From Acanthacorydalis orientalis (lineage: Eukaryota > Arthropoda > Insecta > Megaloptera > Corydalidae): DNA of 64,000 nt. The notes beneath the pieces were generated by a model that saw only the letters and a program-made list of their open reading frames with translations, searched no databases and was not told where the DNA came from. The stretch is taken from positions 4,103,446 to 4,167,445 of the forward strand of contig CM068325.1 in NCBI GenBank assembly GCA_034766995.1. Direction: 5' to 3'. This document shows positions 7,856 to 41,770 of this stretch, piece by piece. Position 1 is the first letter of the stretch, and every line of letters starts with the position of its first letter. Position numbers and translations under genes: made by a program.

Positions 7856-8616
7856 ATGGTCAAGAACAGGGTGCATCCTGTGGGAGACGCGGACGGGAAC
7901 GAGCCCGACAAGAGGCCGAATCTGTTCGAGGCGAGTTACAAGAAGTTCAGCGAGCACGTCGACGGAATCAGGCCGGGACGAGGCCGTGCGAAATTCAAAA
8001 ACAAACAGTGGCAGACGGACACGTCGTCGAACGGCCCGAAGAAACCGTTCGACAAGAAGACGTGGAGACTGAAAACGTACAGTAACAAGTACAAGCTCGA
8101 TAAGTGGGAAGAGAGGCGGAAGAAGCAAGTCCTGAAGGACTACTACAGGAACGTGAAGGGCGATAGTGGCGGAGCGGGCGCCGACGTTCGTCGGCTGTAC
8201 GACGAGGAGGCCCGACGAGGTAAACGCGGCGCCGACGTCGATCCGGCCGGGCCCGCGCGTCACGCTCCTTTTCTTTTCCAGACGGCGACGTCGCGACGAC
8301 GAGGATCAACTACGTCGTCCATCCGGACGTGCTCGAGCGGTTGACGGGCGGCGCGCCGGCGCCGCACGGCAGAGTGTCCGCGCTGAAAGCGGCGCAGGCC
8401 GAGTACGAACGGCTCAAACGGGAAAAACGCGACAGGAAGAGCGACTACCTCCGGCGCAAGGCCGAAAAGGAGAGCGCGCTCGCCGAGTACAGGACGAAGA
8501 AGGCCGAGAAGTTCAAAAAGCTGAGCAGGAGGACGACGAGGGGACAGCCGGTCATGAAGGGACGGATCGAGCTGATGCTCGAGAAGATACAGGCGAGCGT
8601 GAACGGCGACGTCTGA
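7856..8616 (+). CDS. CCDC59: CCDC59 / TAP26 homologue (FYV7-like rRNA-processing factor)
   Basis: Two exons, 7856-8219 and 8282-8616, joined across a 62-base intron (GAG|GTAAAC ... TTTTCCAG|AC), encode 232 residues. The human protein is about 241. The N-terminal half is basic and contains NLFEASYKKFSEHVDG and a KDYYRN stretch. The C-terminal exon is a highly charged coiled coil (AAQAEYERLKREKRDRKSDY) followed by EKFKKLSRRTTRGQPVMKGR and LMLEKIQ, which is the family's diagnostic end. Known role of the family: nucleolar protein of small-subunit rRNA processing; in vertebrates also described as a partner of thyroid transcription factor 1. I chose the AUG at 7856 because its context (GCGAAAATGG) is much better than that of the in-frame AUG at 7826, which would add ten residues. 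Same strand as the two growth genes downstream. Confidence 0.85.
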
Positions 8617-11114: not shown

Positions 11115-11151
11115 TATAAAAAGCCGAGCCGGCCGCGACGGTGGGTCATTC
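11115..11151 (+). promoter_or_regulatory. core promoter of ornithine decarboxylase (TATA + initiator)
   Basis: TATAAAAAG at 11115-11123 is followed by TCATTC at 11146-11151, an exact fit to the arthropod initiator TCAKTY, with its A 33 bases after the first T of the TATA box. That is the usual TATA-to-start spacing. The surroundings are very GC-rich. The main AUG is about 810 genomic bases downstream, after two leader introns or one, so the assignment depends on leader splicing. Confidence 0.6.
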
Positions 11152-11589
11152 GCGGTCTGTCTGGTGGCGATATCGTACGGAGGCTCGTTGACGCGTCGGG
11201 GTGTCCCGTCGCGCGCCACCCCGTCTGAGAGTATACGCGGCGCGAAGGCAGTCGACGAGGAGTTCAGAGCCGGCCGCGCGGGTGTACCGAACCGTGGACG
11301 ATACGGAAAACGTAGATCTCATGGGTACGTTGGAAATCCGTCGTCGAGTGAATCGTTCGTGTCTCGGGCGGATACTCTGCACTCTCTCTCCGTCTTTCGA
11401 ACTGTGTAGAACGCCGCAGTTCACAAAGAAACCGTGTTGTCTCTAATCTCGACAAAAAAAAACGCGCGCGAGGAGAGATAACGTCGATAGAATTGTCTCC
11501 GTTATCTGTTGAGTGGATATCGAGGTCGTCGCCGACGCGAGCGTGCGCGCGACTACGTGTATCCGGTTTTAACCGGCGCTCTTTTGCAG

Positions 11590-11691
11590 GGTTGTGCTAG
11601 CAGCTGCGCTCACGCCCTCTTCGACGCGGCAGGGCTTCCGCCGAGCCCCAACTGGAGACAGAGCCTTAACGTGGAACCTCCGTGGTGGTAG
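11590..11691 (+). CDS. non-AUG upstream reading frame in the ODC leader (uCC-like, ends Pro-Pro-Trp-Trp)
   Basis: The frame begins right after an acceptor (CTCTTTTGCAG, ending at 11589) and runs 33 codons to TAG at 11689-11691. Its end reads NWRQSLNVEPPWW. There is no AUG in it, nor anywhere in the predicted leader exons 11590-11781 and 11867-11961. If the sequence upstream is not removed as an intron, the frame stays open back to 11491, after a TAG at 11488, and offers adjacent CTG (11506) and TTG (11509) codons as near-cognate starts. Established knowledge: ornithine decarboxylase and antizyme-inhibitor mRNAs of many eukaryotes carry a conserved upstream frame that starts at a non-AUG codon, often AUU. 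In the vertebrate antizyme-inhibitor mRNA a terminal Pro-Pro-Trp slows ribosomes when polyamines are high and represses the main frame. The ending here fits that class. The 5' end of the frame is unknown, so the coordinates mark only the conserved part. Confidence 0.75.
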   Translation, partial: GCASSCAHALFDAAGLPPSPNWRQSLNVEPPWW

Positions 11692-11781
11692 CATCGCCCG
11701 AAGTAGGCCTCGATCGCTTTGTCGCTCTCCCCCTAGCCCGCAGACAAATCTAAACTGATCAAATTGAGCGCGGGCTGCCTT

Positions 11782-11866: not shown

Positions 11867-11961
11867 TTTGCTTACGACGACAACGACTGTTCCTAACCGA
11901 TCCACCGATAATACCGCGACTGTTACGACTCTACTACTGCGCCAGCGGACACGGTAGCGAA

Positions 11962-13608
11962 ATGAAGATCCAGGAGCGTGCGCCCGTCCTAGACATGTCC
12001 GAGGACCGGATCAACGCCGTGCTCGGCCCGATGCGCAGCGCGATGGGCGTCGTCCGCTCGGTCGCCGAGTCGAGGGAGCGCGAGGACGCGTTCTACGTGT
12101 GCGACGTCGGCGACATCGTGCGGAAGCACGAGGTGTTCAAGGGCGCGATGCCGCGCGTCGAGCCGCACTACGGTGAGTCGAGACGGCGCGGCGCGTCCCC
12201 GGCCGAGTACGAAACGTCCGCTTCCCGGTTTCAGCCGTCAAGTGCAACGACAGCTGCACGGTCCTGTCGGTGCTCGCGTCGCTCGGCACCGGGTTCGACT
12301 GCGCGTCGCGCGCCGAGATCGACGCGGTGCTGTCGCTCGGCGTCGACCCGGACCGGATAATCTTCGCGAATCCGGCGAAGCCGCGCTCGCACGTGGTGCA
12401 CGCGCTCGCCGCCGGCGTCGACCTCATGACGTTCGACTGCGAGAACGAGCTGCAGAAGATCAAGAAGGCGTGCAAGAGGACCGGAGCGAGCGCGCCGAGG
12501 CTCGTGCTGCGCATCCGGTGCGACGCCGTCGTCGCGCAGTGCCCGCTCGGGCTCAAGTTCGGATGCGACCCGATCGAAGGTGCGTCGGATCCGGCCGCCG
12601 GACCGCCCGGACGGTCGGATGATAATATCTCTCTCTCTATCTCTTGCAGAAGCCCCGCGGCTGCTCCGTATCGCGCGGTCGCTCGACCTGAGCGTCGTCG
12701 GCGTGAGTTTCCACGTCGGGTCCGGGTGCGGCGAGCCGCCGGTGTTCCGCAGGGCGATCTCGGCCGCGCGCGACATCTTCGACTACGGCGCGACGCTCGG
12801 CTACTCGATGGACTTGCTCGACATCGGCGGCGGCTTCCCCGGCGACGCCGGCACGTCTATCCTGCCGATCGCCGAGGTCGTCAACAGGGCGCTCGACGAG
12901 TTCTTCCCGGAGTCGTGCGGCGCGCGCGTCATCGCCGAGCCGGGCCGGTTCTACGTCGCTTCGGCGTACACCCTGGCCACGCACATCCACTCGAAGCGGG
13001 TCGTCGACTCGAAAGTCACGGCCGAGCGCCACTTCATGTACTACATCGACGACGGCGTCTACGGCAGTTTCAACTGCATCCTCTACGACCACCAGGTCGT
13101 CAAGCCGATAGTCCTCAAGGTGAGCGTAGCGTCGGACCGACCGACCGACCGAATCCCTCTCTGATCGTAATCGTCTCTCTACTTCCAGCCGATCTACGGG
13201 AAGCTGTATCCGTCGAGCGTGTGGGGCCCGTCGTGCGACAGTTTGGACCGCGTGCTCGACGACGTGCTCCTCCCGGAGCTCGACATCGGCGACTGGCTCG
13301 TGTTCGAGAACATGGGCGCGTACACGATCCCGGTCGCGTCCCCGTTCAACGGGTTTCCGGTCCCGCGCGTGTTCTACGTCGCCGACGTCGAGACGCTGTC
13401 GTCGCTCAGCGACGGCGTCCGCGCGCCCGTCGCGCGCCGCACGTTCGACTTCGAGAACATCAAGAACGAGCTGACCGCGTGGGCGAACGCCGAGCCGGTC
13501 CTCGTCGACCTGCCGCTGTTCGCGACCGCGCCGGCCGGCCACTGCGGCGTCGACCAGGCCAAGTCCGAGGTGTACGAGTACGTCGAAGCGATCGGGACGA
13601 TGAATTGA
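11962..13608 (+). CDS. Odc: ornithine decarboxylase
   Basis: Four coding exons, 11962-12172, 12235-12579, 12650-13119 and 13189-13608, with introns of 62, 70 and 69 bases. They give 481 residues, against 461 in mammals. The enzyme is PLP-dependent and cytosolic and converts ornithine to putrescine, the first step of polyamine synthesis. Visible landmarks in family order: HYAVKCND with the PLP lysine at 73; GFDCAS (Asp92); SFHVGSGC (His207, Ser210); DIGGGFPG (Gly245-247); [10 protein letters not shown] (Glu282, Arg285); [22 protein letters not shown] with the catalytic cysteine at 358 and Asp359/Asp362; ENMGAYT (Tyr387). All positions that are replaced in antizyme inhibitors are intact, so this should be an active enzyme. 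[13 protein letters not shown] lies where the antizyme-binding element sits in mammals. The C-terminus ends in [10 protein letters not shown] and lacks the mammalian degron end. The AUG has a purine at -3. Confidence 0.97.
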
Positions 13609-15191: not shown

Positions 15192-16873
15192 ATGTACTGT
15201 AACGCTTTTCAGCCGAAGAGGAAAAAGTTTATCGACAAGAAGAACTCGGTGACGTTCCACCTCGTGCACAGGAGCCAGCAGGATCCGCTGATCACCGACG
15301 AAACAGCGCCGAAACACGTATTGCTCGAGGTCGGCGATAAACAGGCTAAGGTGTTATTCGGATATCTTAAGACTCTAGAGACGAAACGGTCTGTCGCGCC
15401 CGTCCACGATTGTTTCAGAACAATGCGAAGCGATCGAAGGAGGAGCAGGTCAAGTACGGAATATACTACGACGATAACTACGACTACATGCAGCACCTGC
15501 GCGACGGCTCGGACGTGCGCCAGGTCGGCTGGGAGAAGGTCGAGCACCGGACGGCCGCGAGACCGGACACGAACCGAAAGACGATCGAGTACGAGTTCGC
15601 CGACGACGTCGAGAAACGGTACAAGATACAGCTGCCGAGTTCCGTGTTCGCGTCGGAGGTCGAAGAGAAAGTAGGGCTGTTGAATAAGGCGGCGCCGAGT
15701 TCCGGCCTCCGTCTCGATCTCGATCCGGACATCGTCGCGGCCATGGACGAGGATTTCGATTACGACGACCCGGACAACCGGCTCGAGGACGATTTCATGG
15801 AGCTCGCGAACGCCGAGCCGGGCTCGGACGACGACGACGGCCGTTCCGATAGCGGCGGCTACTCTTCCGAGGAGAGAGACGACGTCGCGAGTCTCGACGG
15901 CCCGCAGTACAGTTTCAGGGACGAAGAGACGAAGTCGCGGTTTACGGATTACTCGATGTCGAGCTCGGTGATGAGACGGAACGAACAGTTGTCCCTGCTC
16001 GACGATAGATTCGAAAAGGTAAGTCGCCGGGTAAGTGATCCGGTCGCGAAGTGTTCATTTCGATCGTCTGCCTCTTAGATGTACGCCGATTACGACGAGA
16101 ACGAGACGGGCGCGCTCGACACGGACGAAATCGAAGGACACGTAGATCCGACGGTCGACGTACTGAAACAATGCTTGGACGAATTCGAAAAATCGCGACG
16201 GAAAGATACGATCGACACGGACGCGGTCGTCGAAAAAGTCAAGTCGTACGCGGAACGAGAAGTGAGTACGTCCGAAGCGCCGGTCGGTCTCGATTTTCAA
16301 CCGTCGTTTCTTACAGGAATCGTCGGACGAAGATCTCGTACCGTTCGATATAACCGAGAAGACCGCCGACAAGTGGGACTGCGAGAGTATACTTTCGACG
16401 TACTCGAATCTGTACAATCATCCGAAACTCATAACCGAACCGAAAGTGAGCGAACGCGTGTGCACGAAAAACTCGCACGGCCTGTATCGTTAATTTTTTC
16501 GTTTCGACAGGGCCCGCCGAAAATCAAAGTCAGCGCGAAAACGGGAATTCCTCTCGGCGTCCTAGGGAAGGACAACAAGCTCACGGCGAAAGCCCTCGCG
16601 CGGTTCGACGCCGAGAACGAGAGCCGGGCCGGCAGAAACGGGCCGAAGTCGTGCGCCGAATCGATCGTGTCGACTCTGAGCGCTCTGTCGATCCGGCCGA
16701 AGGACGAGACTCCCGAGGGGAGGCACGAGAGGAAGAGACTGCTGAGAGAGTACCGGAAGGAGAGACGGCTCGAGAGGAAAGCGAACGCCGAGGCGTTCAA
16801 AGAAGAGAAGAAGAGACAGGAGAAGATAGCGATGAATAACAGGAATAACGTACAAGGGAATAGGATCTTGTGA
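15192..16873 (+). CDS. LTV1: LTV1, 40S ribosomal subunit biogenesis/export factor
   Basis: Five exons: 15192-15350, 15419-16018, 16079-16261, 16317-16445 and 16511-16873. All junctions are phase 0 and introns are 55-68 bases. The product is 477 residues from the in-frame AUG at 15192, and the human protein is 475. The order of conserved blocks matches LTV1 throughout: KKFIDKKNSVTFHLVHRSQ at the N-terminus, YGIYYDDNYDYMQHL, KIQLPSSVFASE, GLLNKAAPSSG, LDLDPDIVAAMDEDFDYDDP, an acidic Asp/Ser-rich stretch, SRFTDYSMSSSVMRRNEQL, KWDCESILSTYSNLYNHPKL, SAKTGIPLGVL and a basic C-terminal coiled coil. Known role: non-ribosomal factor of pre-40S particles. The exact start is uncertain. The sequence just before CCGAAG at 15213 (CTGTAACGCTTTTCAG) also looks like a splice acceptor, in which case the first codons come from an upstream exon. 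Confidence 0.95.
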
Positions 16874-32859: not shown

Positions 32860-34080
32860 AAAATCGGATATCGTCTGAAAGAGTGTTAAATTTTCTATAA
32901 CGGATAGCTTTTTTGAAACTCTACAGAAATAAATACGTCCGTAATGGCGGCTTAAAGAGGGAGCGGCGATTCTCAGGCAGTTCGGAATGACAAGTCGTCA
33001 GTTTCGTGCGGACATCAATCGACTGAATTTAGTTGGAGCTGAAAAATGTTGTACATGGTTTAAAAGGGAATCGAATTTCCTATAACATGTATTTTTTTCA
33101 AAACGTTTAAAGGACAGGCACGTCCGTGATGGCGGCTTGAACAGAGAACTAGGATTTTTGAATAGTTGCGAAACACACTTGTCGAGTTTTCTGCAAAAAT
33201 CTTCATTAATTTCAAGCAAAAATATAATGTATTAAATGTCATTCGAAGTAGGATTAAATTTTCTATAAGAAACATTTCCTTTAATAATTTTTATAAGACA
33301 AATACGTCTACAATGGCGGCCTGAACACACATCAACGATTTTCTAAAATCAGTGAAACACACTTCATCGATTTTCTTCGAGCATATCAGTCACTTCGAAC
33401 CCAAACTTAAATATTTACACATTTTTCAAAACAGAATAATATTTCACATACCATATATTTTTTTCAAAATTTTCTAAAAGCAAACACACCCGCAATGGCG
33501 GTTTAATCATAGACCGACGATTTTGCAACAGTTGCGAAACACACTTTGTCAGTTTTCTGCAAATATCTCCATTAATTTGACCCAAAACTATAAAGTGTTA
33601 CATATCGTTCGAAAGAGAATTGAATTTTCTATGAAATGTATTTTTAATAAAATTTTTAAAAAGGCAAACACGTCAAAAATGGCGGCCTGAACATGCACCA
33701 ACGATTTTCGAAAATTAGCGAAACACACTTTCTACAAACATCTCAGTCAATTCGAACCGAATCTTGAAAAAATTGTACATATTCCCAAACAGACTTAAGT
33801 CGTCTATAATATATATTTTTTTCAAAATTTTACAAAAGCGAACACACCCGCAATGGCGGCTGAAACACAGACCGACGATTTTCCATCACTTGCGAAACAC
33901 TCTTCGCCTATTTTCTACAAATATCTCAGCTAATTTCAATCCGAACTTAAATTTAATGCAGACGATTCGAAAGAGAATTAAATTTCCTATAAAGTACATT
34001 TTTTCAAATTTCGAAAACGGTCTCCACACTTCCACAGTGTTCAGACGGATGAATAAGTCAGATCCGACGAATAAGAAACG
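32860..34080 (+). repeat. main ~184 bp tandem array
   Basis: Six to seven copies. ATGGCGG starts at 32944, 33129, 33313, 33495, 33679 and 33853 (spacing 185, 184, 182, 184, 174). Each copy has, in order, GTTCGAAAGAGAATTAAATT, TTCTATAA, a T-run, AAA(C/T)ACRYCCGYAATGGCGG, a GAACGACGATTTTC-like block, GCGAAACACACTT and TTTTCTGCAAATATCTC. Confidence 0.93.
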
Positions 34081-36349: not shown

Positions 36350-37740
36350 AGCAAGTTTTAAGCGAATTACTCAGACAATTTCAACCTAACCTCAAAAGTT
36401 TTATGTACCATTCGAAAGAAAATTGTATTATCCGTAAGGTTTATTTTTTTAGAAATTTTAATAAAATAAATACGGCCGTAATGAAGAGGGAGTGTTCTAC
36501 TAATAGTTGTATAATACATACTGCAAGTTTTATGCAAATTATTTAGTCAGTTTGAGGTTAACTCTAAATATATTATATATCGTTGGAAAGGGTATTGAAT
36601 TTTATAACAGAAATATTTTTTTAAAAATTCTCAATCGATAAATAAATCCGTAATGGCGGCTTAAATAGAGAACAGCGATTTTCGAACAGTTCTATAATAC
36701 ATATTGGAAGTTTTATGCAAATTACTGAATCAATTTTAGATTTAACTTAAAAGGTTTATATACAGTGCGAAATGGAATTAAATTTCATGTAAAAAATATT
36801 TCTTCGAAAATTTTTAACCGATAAATACATCCGCAATGGCGGCTTGAAGTGAGATCGACGATTTTTCAACAGGTCTCTAATACATATTGCAAGTTTTATG
36901 CAAATTACTCAATCAATTTTAGAATAAACGTACATTTTTTACATATCTTTTGAAAGGGAATAAAATTTTATATAAAAAGTATTTTTTTAAATTTTTAAAT
37001 CAATAAATATATCCGTAATGTTATTTTAAACAGAGGTCAACGTACTTTCATCAGTTTTATAATACACATTGCAAGTTTTATACGAATTACTCAACCAATT
37101 TTAGATTGAACTTGAAATTTTTATATATCATTTGAAAGAGAATATAATTTGATATAAAAATTATTTTTTTTTAAATTTTCAATCAATAAGTACATCCATA
37201 ATAGCGGCTTAAACAAGGTCAACGTTTTTCCAACAGATCTCTAATACATATTGCAAGTTTTATGCGAATCACTCAATCAATTCAAGACTAAACTTAATTT
37301 TTTTATATATCTTTTGAAAAGGAATTAAATTTGATATTAAAAGTATTTTTTTAAAATTTTTAAATCAATAAATATATCCGTAATGGTAGCTTAAACAGAT
37401 GTCAATGAACTTTCACCAGTTTCATAATACATACTGCAAGTTTTAATTAAATTACTCGACGAATTTTAGACTGAACTTAAATTTTTATACATCATTCTAA
37501 AGAGTATAAAATTTCATATAAGAAACATTTTTTTAAAAATTTTCAATCGGTAAGTACATCCGTAACGGCTGCTTTAACAGAGATCAACGACCTTGCAACA
37601 GTTGAATGACACACAGTGTAAGTTATACCCAAATTACACAATCAATTATGATCTAAACAAAAAAACTGTACACACCATTCGAAATAGAATTAAATTATAC
37701 ATCTGATGTAATTTATTCAAAATTTAATAACTGCAATCGC
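36350..37740 (+). repeat. main ~184 bp tandem array, AT-rich version
   Basis: Seven to eight copies about 182-184 bases apart, with AATACATATTGCAAGTTTTA, TGCGAATTACTCAATCAATT, TTTGAAAGAGAATATAATTT and CATCCGTAATGGCGGCTTAA. Copies from about 36700 to 37430 match 40770-41500 in the same order, at a constant offset of about 4070 bases. Confidence 0.93.
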
Positions 37741-40545: not shown

Positions 40546-41770
40546 TTATAATAATTTTTTAAGTTTTTTCAACAGTTTTGTAATACATATTGCAAGTTTT
40601 ATGGGAATCACTCAACCGATTTTAGATTGGGCTCGGAATTTTTATATATCGTTTGAAAGAAAATATAATTTTATATGAAAATAATTTTTTTTTTAATTTT
40701 CGATCAATAAATATATCAATAATGTTGGTTTAAACAGAGGTCAACGTACTTCCATCAGTTCTCTAATACATATTGGAAGTTTTATGCAAATTACTGAATC
40801 AATTTTAGACTGAACTTAAAAGTTTTATATACAGTACGAAATAGAATTAAATTTTATATAAAAAATATTTCTTTGAAAATTTTCAATCCATAAATACATC
40901 CGCAATGGCGGCTTGAAGTGAGATCAATGATTTTTCAACAGGTCTCTAATACATATTGTAAGTTTTATGCAAATTAATCAATCAATTTTAGAATAAACTT
41001 ACATTTTTTACATATCCTTTGAAAGGGAATAAACTTTTATATAAAAAGTATTTTTTTAAAATTTTTAAATCAATAAACATATCCGTAATGGTAGTTTAAA
41101 CAGAGGTCAACGTACTTTCATCAGTTTTATAATACATATTGCAAGTTTTATGCGAATTACTCAACCGATTTTAGATTGAACTTGAAATTTTTATACATCA
41201 TTTGAAATAGAATATAATTTGATATAAAAATTATTTTTTTTTAAATTTTCAATCAATAAGTACATCCATAATAGCGGCTTAAAGAAGGTCAACGTTTTCC
41301 CAACAGTTCTCTAATACATATTGCAAGTTTTATGCGAATCACTCAATCAATTCAAGACTAAACTAAAATTTTTTATATACATTTTGAAACGGAATAAAAT
41401 TTCATATAAAAAGTATTTTTTTTTAAATTTTAAATCAATAAACATATCCGTAATGGTGGTTTAAACAGAGGTCAACGTACTTTCATCAATTTTGTAATAC
41501 ATATTGCAAGTTTTATACGAATTACTCAACCGATTTTAGATTGCACTTAAATTTTTATATATCGTTCGAAAGAGAATATAATGTCATATAAAAATTATTT
41601 TTTTTTTAATTTTCAATCAATAAATAAATCCATAATGGCGGCTTAAACGGATAACAACGATTTTCCAACAGTTCTCTAATACATACTGCAAGTTTCATGC
41701 GAATCACTCAATCGATTCAAGACTAAACTTACATTTTTTATACATCTTTCGAAAGGGAATAAAATTTGTT
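40545..41770 (+). repeat. main ~184 bp tandem array, AT-rich version
   Basis: Six to seven copies. CATAATGGCGG-type blocks occur at about 40905, 41088, 41271, 41453 and 41634. It is collinear with 36.7-37.4 kb. Confidence 0.93.

Follow-up and report, generated by a model that had tools for sequence, protein, structure and literature searches.

In the window, by which we mean the whole 64,000-base stretch of DNA analysed here, the predicted 5' leader of an ornithine decarboxylase (ODC) gene carries a short upstream open reading frame (uORF) ending in Glu-Pro-Pro-Trp-Trp directly before its stop codon. We propose, with fairly good confidence, that this frame is a polyamine-sensing uORF of the uCC type, comparable to that of the antizyme inhibitor AZIN1. 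The enzyme encoded downstream retains its active-site motifs. The circuit itself would probably not be new, the insect frame being a further case of one already known.

The frame, its predicted leader and the downstream enzyme

The leader is known here from DNA alone, its splice model and transcription start being predictions. The start was placed by assumption at about 11146, at an initiator-like TCATTC 31 bases downstream of a TATA box, and donors were scored with a simple matrix. The features discussed below are as follows (a slash marks a splice junction).

11115..11121, + strand: TATA box, TATAAAA, read from the sequence
11146..11324, + strand: predicted leader exon 1, from splice-site scoring, with donor TGG/GTACGT
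11316..11318, + strand: candidate near-cognate start AUC in the context UAG AUC U, the only in-frame near-cognate before exon 2 in the best splice model
11321..11323, + strand: upstream AUG at the end of exon 1 (CTCATGG), out of frame with the donor at 11324
11590..11781, + strand: predicted leader exon 2, from the splice model
11590..11691, + strand: uORF body in leader exon 2, translating as GCASSCAHALFDAAGLPPSPNWRQSLNVEPPWW-stop
11677..11688, + strand: Pro-Pro-Trp-Trp codons CCT CCG TGG TGG, followed by TAG, read from the sequence; predicted stall site
11867..11961, + strand: predicted leader exon 3, from the splice model, without ATG, with acceptor CCCGTTTCAG
11962..13608, + strand: ornithine decarboxylase, 481 aa, in exons 11962-12172, 12235-12579, 12650-13119 and 13189-13608, from translation and database matches

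Translation of 11590-11691 confirmed the 33-codon frame reported by the first-pass annotation: 33 sense codons and a stop, ending NWRQSLNVEPPWW-stop. The frame opens exactly at a predicted 3' splice site (...CTCTTTTGCAG/GG, the AG lying at 11588-11589), and its only internal near-cognate codon is a GUG, six codons short of the stop. Its EPPWW-stop ending places Pro-Pro-Trp at the C-terminus beside the stop codon, as in uCC-type uORFs. The same annotation had put the uORF stop about 185 bases before the enzyme and described the last leader exons as free of AUG. Both statements hold: 185 spliced bases separate the uORF stop from the ODC AUG at 11962, and neither modelled exon 2 nor modelled exon 3 contains an ATG. 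The leader as a whole is AUG-less only after intron 1, because modelled exon 1 carries an AUG that is out of frame.

No RNA element was recognised in the leader. The leader folds no better than its shuffled versions (z of 1.15, with 88 of 100 shuffles at least as stable), and Rfam gave no match at the gathering threshold within the 64,000-base window. We therefore rejected RNA structure as a regulatory element, and count the lack of fold support as a point against the uCC reading.

Among solved structures, the ODC product matches human ODC best (418.8 bits), with antizyme inhibitor 1 at 299.7 bits. In the protein database, the best 120 of 7980 passing matches reach 65% identity, those with names being insect ODCs except for one mite protein. 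Judged from the proteins it encodes, the window is insect DNA. We aligned the window's ODC with the 112 of those 120 listed matches that are shorter than 520 aa, dropping the eight longer ones. Across these 113 rows the majority residue is present at 18 of 18 columns that we take to be the active site, from a list that may differ from the published list of 18. With these columns retained, the enzyme looks catalytically active, and the earlier claim of intact catalytic residues holds for them. Residue 286 is F, the residue found in 89 of the 113 rows; human ODC has Y at this position. NCBIfam returned no ODC family above its cut-off for this protein, its seven weak matches being related decarboxylases, and in a tree of 58 rows (the window's ODC and 57 of the 120 listed matches) the protein sits on a long branch without resolved placement.

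Both genes identified beside ODC are ribosome-biogenesis genes. Upstream, on the same strand, a two-exon gene at 7859-8613 encodes an rRNA-processing family protein (PF08524), with sense codons from 7859. The ribosome biogenesis factor LTV1 (PF04180) occupies 15213-16870, where five exons, the first not among them, were read; its best named matches are from Hymenoptera, at about 60% identity. Further along, tandem arrays at 33082-33991, 36505-37647 and 40565-41767 are built of units of about 182-184 bases and double units of 365-366 bases, resembling satellite-like higher-order repeats. Between 17000 and 64000 the stop-to-stop ORFs that reach 110 aa number at least 60, and inspection of the list revealed no obvious gene.

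Chance, coding signal and relatives of the peptide

The frame could be a neutral open stretch of leader that ends in Pro-Pro-Trp-Trp by accident, with ODC controlled in another way, for example by antizyme. We judge this unlikely, mainly from the ending itself. The window's 64,000 bases hold the pattern CCN-CCN-TGG (CCNCCNTGG) a single time on the + strand, at the end of the uORF, and not at all on the - strand. We shuffled the 466-base leader 20,000 times with dinucleotides preserved: a frame ending in either PPW-stop or PPWW-stop arose in 22 of these shuffles, and PPWW-stop in none. The ending thus exceeds chance expectation, with figures that are somewhat flattering because the motif was proposed after being noticed in the sequence. 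Pro-Pro-Trp at the end of a frame is, moreover, no arbitrary word: it is what characterises the AZIN1 element already described, and the gene downstream of the uORF belongs to the very family in which this motif is known. The absence of ATG from the last 287 leader bases adds a mild signal, matched by 1309 of the 20,000 shuffles.

Other properties of the frame favour the accidental explanation and count against the uCC reading. Its open length is ordinary: at this base composition a 32-codon stretch has a chance of about 36% of being open. Its codon usage resembles that of non-coding DNA: scored against the genome's CDS, the uORF reaches -0.91 bits per codon, compared with a minimum of +0.39 in windows of the ODC gene; the remaining two frames give similar values (-1.14 and -0.94). 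A score at least as high as that of the uORF frame was found in 71% of 3245 overlapping non-CDS windows, the leader itself included, and in 3018 of 5000 shuffled versions of the uORF frame. Codon usage was therefore tried as support for coding and came out negative. It argues mildly against coding, and the negative is a weak one: where selection acts on the residues of a short regulatory nascent peptide, its codons may well depart from the bias of the genome.

The searches made for relatives of the peptide found none, which also speaks for accident. No candidate in the protein database had three 5-residue words in common with the uORF peptide, a null that says little since short frames without an AUG rarely enter predicted protein sets, and no match was found among PDB chains. 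We also scanned viral and prokaryotic DNA collections. The long pattern gave 0 matches in viral contigs. The short pattern, N-[FLIMV]-[EQ]-PPWW followed by TRR (which admits TGG besides stop codons), gave one match in viral contigs and 12 in prokaryote genome contigs, six of the latter ending in a stop and six in a further W; about 15 would be expected by chance, according to our hand estimate with uniform bases. No ODC coding sequence was found within 3-8 kb around the 12 prokaryote matches (best E of 3.2). Among viral contigs, three stretches fitted a pattern for ODC relatives and 0 were confirmed.

Start codon and choice of first exon

In the best splice model, exon 1 ends at the donor at 11324, whose score of 5.67 is the highest among the GT sites ranked in 11147-11560. 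The in-frame codons ahead of exon 2 are then AUC-UCA-UGG. They directly follow an in-frame UAG, so the AUC at 11316 is the sole near-cognate start available before exon 2. Initiation at this codon would yield a uORF of 36 codons and would place the start 99 spliced bases, or 33 codons, from the second proline codon.

Three features of this arrangement weigh against the uCC reading. The context of the AUC is poor, with U at -3 and U at +4. Five bases downstream of it lies the AUG at 11321, which with the donor at 11324 opens a 4-codon out-of-frame uORF (MGLC-stop) overlapping the start of the PPWW frame. Finally, the other four donors of the gene model all outscore that of exon 1, ranging from 6.75 to 10.59.

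The poor AUC context, together with a first exon that is predicted only and has the weakest of the five donors, would fit a transcript with a different first exon, in which initiation falls on some other near-cognate codon, for instance AUU. The mechanism would otherwise be the one we favour, and the two explanations overlap. We regard a different first exon as quite unlikely, as the TATA box, the initiator-like TCATTC and the best-scoring donor all agree with the present model.

Alternatively, the uORF could be functional and start with AUG. A second donor, CGA/GTGAAT after 11347, lies 23 bases beyond the first and would bring the AUG at 11321 into frame; the stretch carrying that AUG stays open for 52 codons up to this donor. 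The product would be a uORF of 42 codons that keeps the PPWW ending (MGTLEIRRRGCASSC...PPWW), acting as a constitutive or splice-controlled repressor instead of a non-AUG sensor. This is very unlikely in our view: the donor scores 3.15 against 5.67 for that at 11324, and the AZIN1 uORF has a non-AUG start. A two-state switch set by splicing, in which the donor at 11324 gives a weak AUC-started polyamine sensor and that at 11347 an AUG-started stall peptide with near-constitutive repression of putrescine synthesis, is a far-fetched conjecture.

Comparison with known systems and a proposed circuit

We return to the reading that we favour, a uCC-type polyamine sensor. uORFs with unusual start codons reportedly occur on ODC homologues from yeast to mammals. 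In AZIN1, polyamines hinder the eIF5A-dependent synthesis of the Pro-Pro-Trp that closes a non-AUG uORF. Ribosomes queue behind the one that stalls there, and the queue increases initiation from the weak start, switching the main frame off (PMC9082881, PMC11550727, PMC11058473, PMC4458265). The weak start lies about 30 codons upstream of the stall (PMC9082881), and the uORF is about 50 codons long (PMC4458265).

The frame described here resembles the AZIN1 uCC (Ivanov et al. 2008, 2018, as described in later papers) in having no in-frame AUG in the best model, a C-terminal Pro-Pro-Trp and an ODC-family protein downstream. The distance from candidate start to predicted stall is also similar, 33 codons compared with about 30 in AZIN1. 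The two elements may be homologous. The insect frame differs in its candidate start (AUC instead of AUU), in its length (36 codons instead of the approximately 50 given in PMC4458265), in the second W that follows Pro-Pro-Trp and, in the best model, in the out-of-frame AUG overlapping its start. Unlike AZIN1, the protein downstream keeps its catalytic residues.

Other leaders offer looser parallels. The title of Ivanov et al. 2008, as cited in PMC9082881 and PMC4458265, places uORFs that have unusual start codons on 'eukaryotic ornithine decarboxylase homologs'; the frame studied here is likewise in the leader of an ODC homologue and likewise has an unusual candidate start, a comparison made by description and not by residues. 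In yeast HOL1, according to PMC11550727, the end of the uORF peptide also stalls ribosomes at high polyamine, although HOL1 is a polyamine importer gene and its motif is PS-stop. Polyamine-mediated regulation through uORFs is listed for AZIN1, AMD1, ODC1 and others, vertebrate ODC1 being among the mRNAs with published polyamine-responsive uORFs (PMC6067879). A single ODC-like gene is the rule among invertebrates, with mosquitoes among the exceptions (PMC5574924). Because uORFs of ODC homologues and the single invertebrate ODC-like gene are already in print, it would be expected, not startling, for an invertebrate ODC that is active to carry a uCC. Among the literature matches listed, none dealt with an insect ODC uCC by its title or the start of its abstract, a null of little weight with the primary papers of 2008 and 2018 lying outside this comparison, and the string PPWW had 0 occurrences in the 25 listed of 314 matching papers.

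The first-pass annotation had identified the frame as a uCC-type sensor and presented the circuit on an active enzyme as a novelty. The identification is partly supported and is the best explanation, given the position in the predicted leader of an ODC-family mRNA, the Pro-Pro-Trp beside the stop, the lack of an in-frame AUG in the best model and the near-cognate codon that precedes the predicted stall site by 33 codons. The intact active-site motifs likewise agree with an active enzyme as the target. The claim of special novelty is weak, given the published work on ODC1 and on ODC homologues.

By analogy with AZIN1, the circuit would operate as follows. At low polyamine concentration, most scanning ribosomes would bypass the weak start, which in the best splice model is the AUC, so that ODC would be translated. 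At high concentration, eIF5A-dependent synthesis of Pro-Pro-Trp would be hindered and the ribosome would stall at these codons, just before the stop. Trailing ribosomes would queue about 99 bases back to the weak start and promote further initiation there. Raised initiation on the uORF would in turn lower ODC translation, and putrescine synthesis would sense its own products.

If this reading is true, the committed step of polyamine synthesis in this insect would be under a nascent-peptide, eIF5A-linked sensor, alongside antizyme. It would provide an arthropod example in which the target is an enzyme, and not a catalytically dead inhibitor. The circuit itself is already known; the insect case would help to show which target was ancestral, ODC or the inhibitor.
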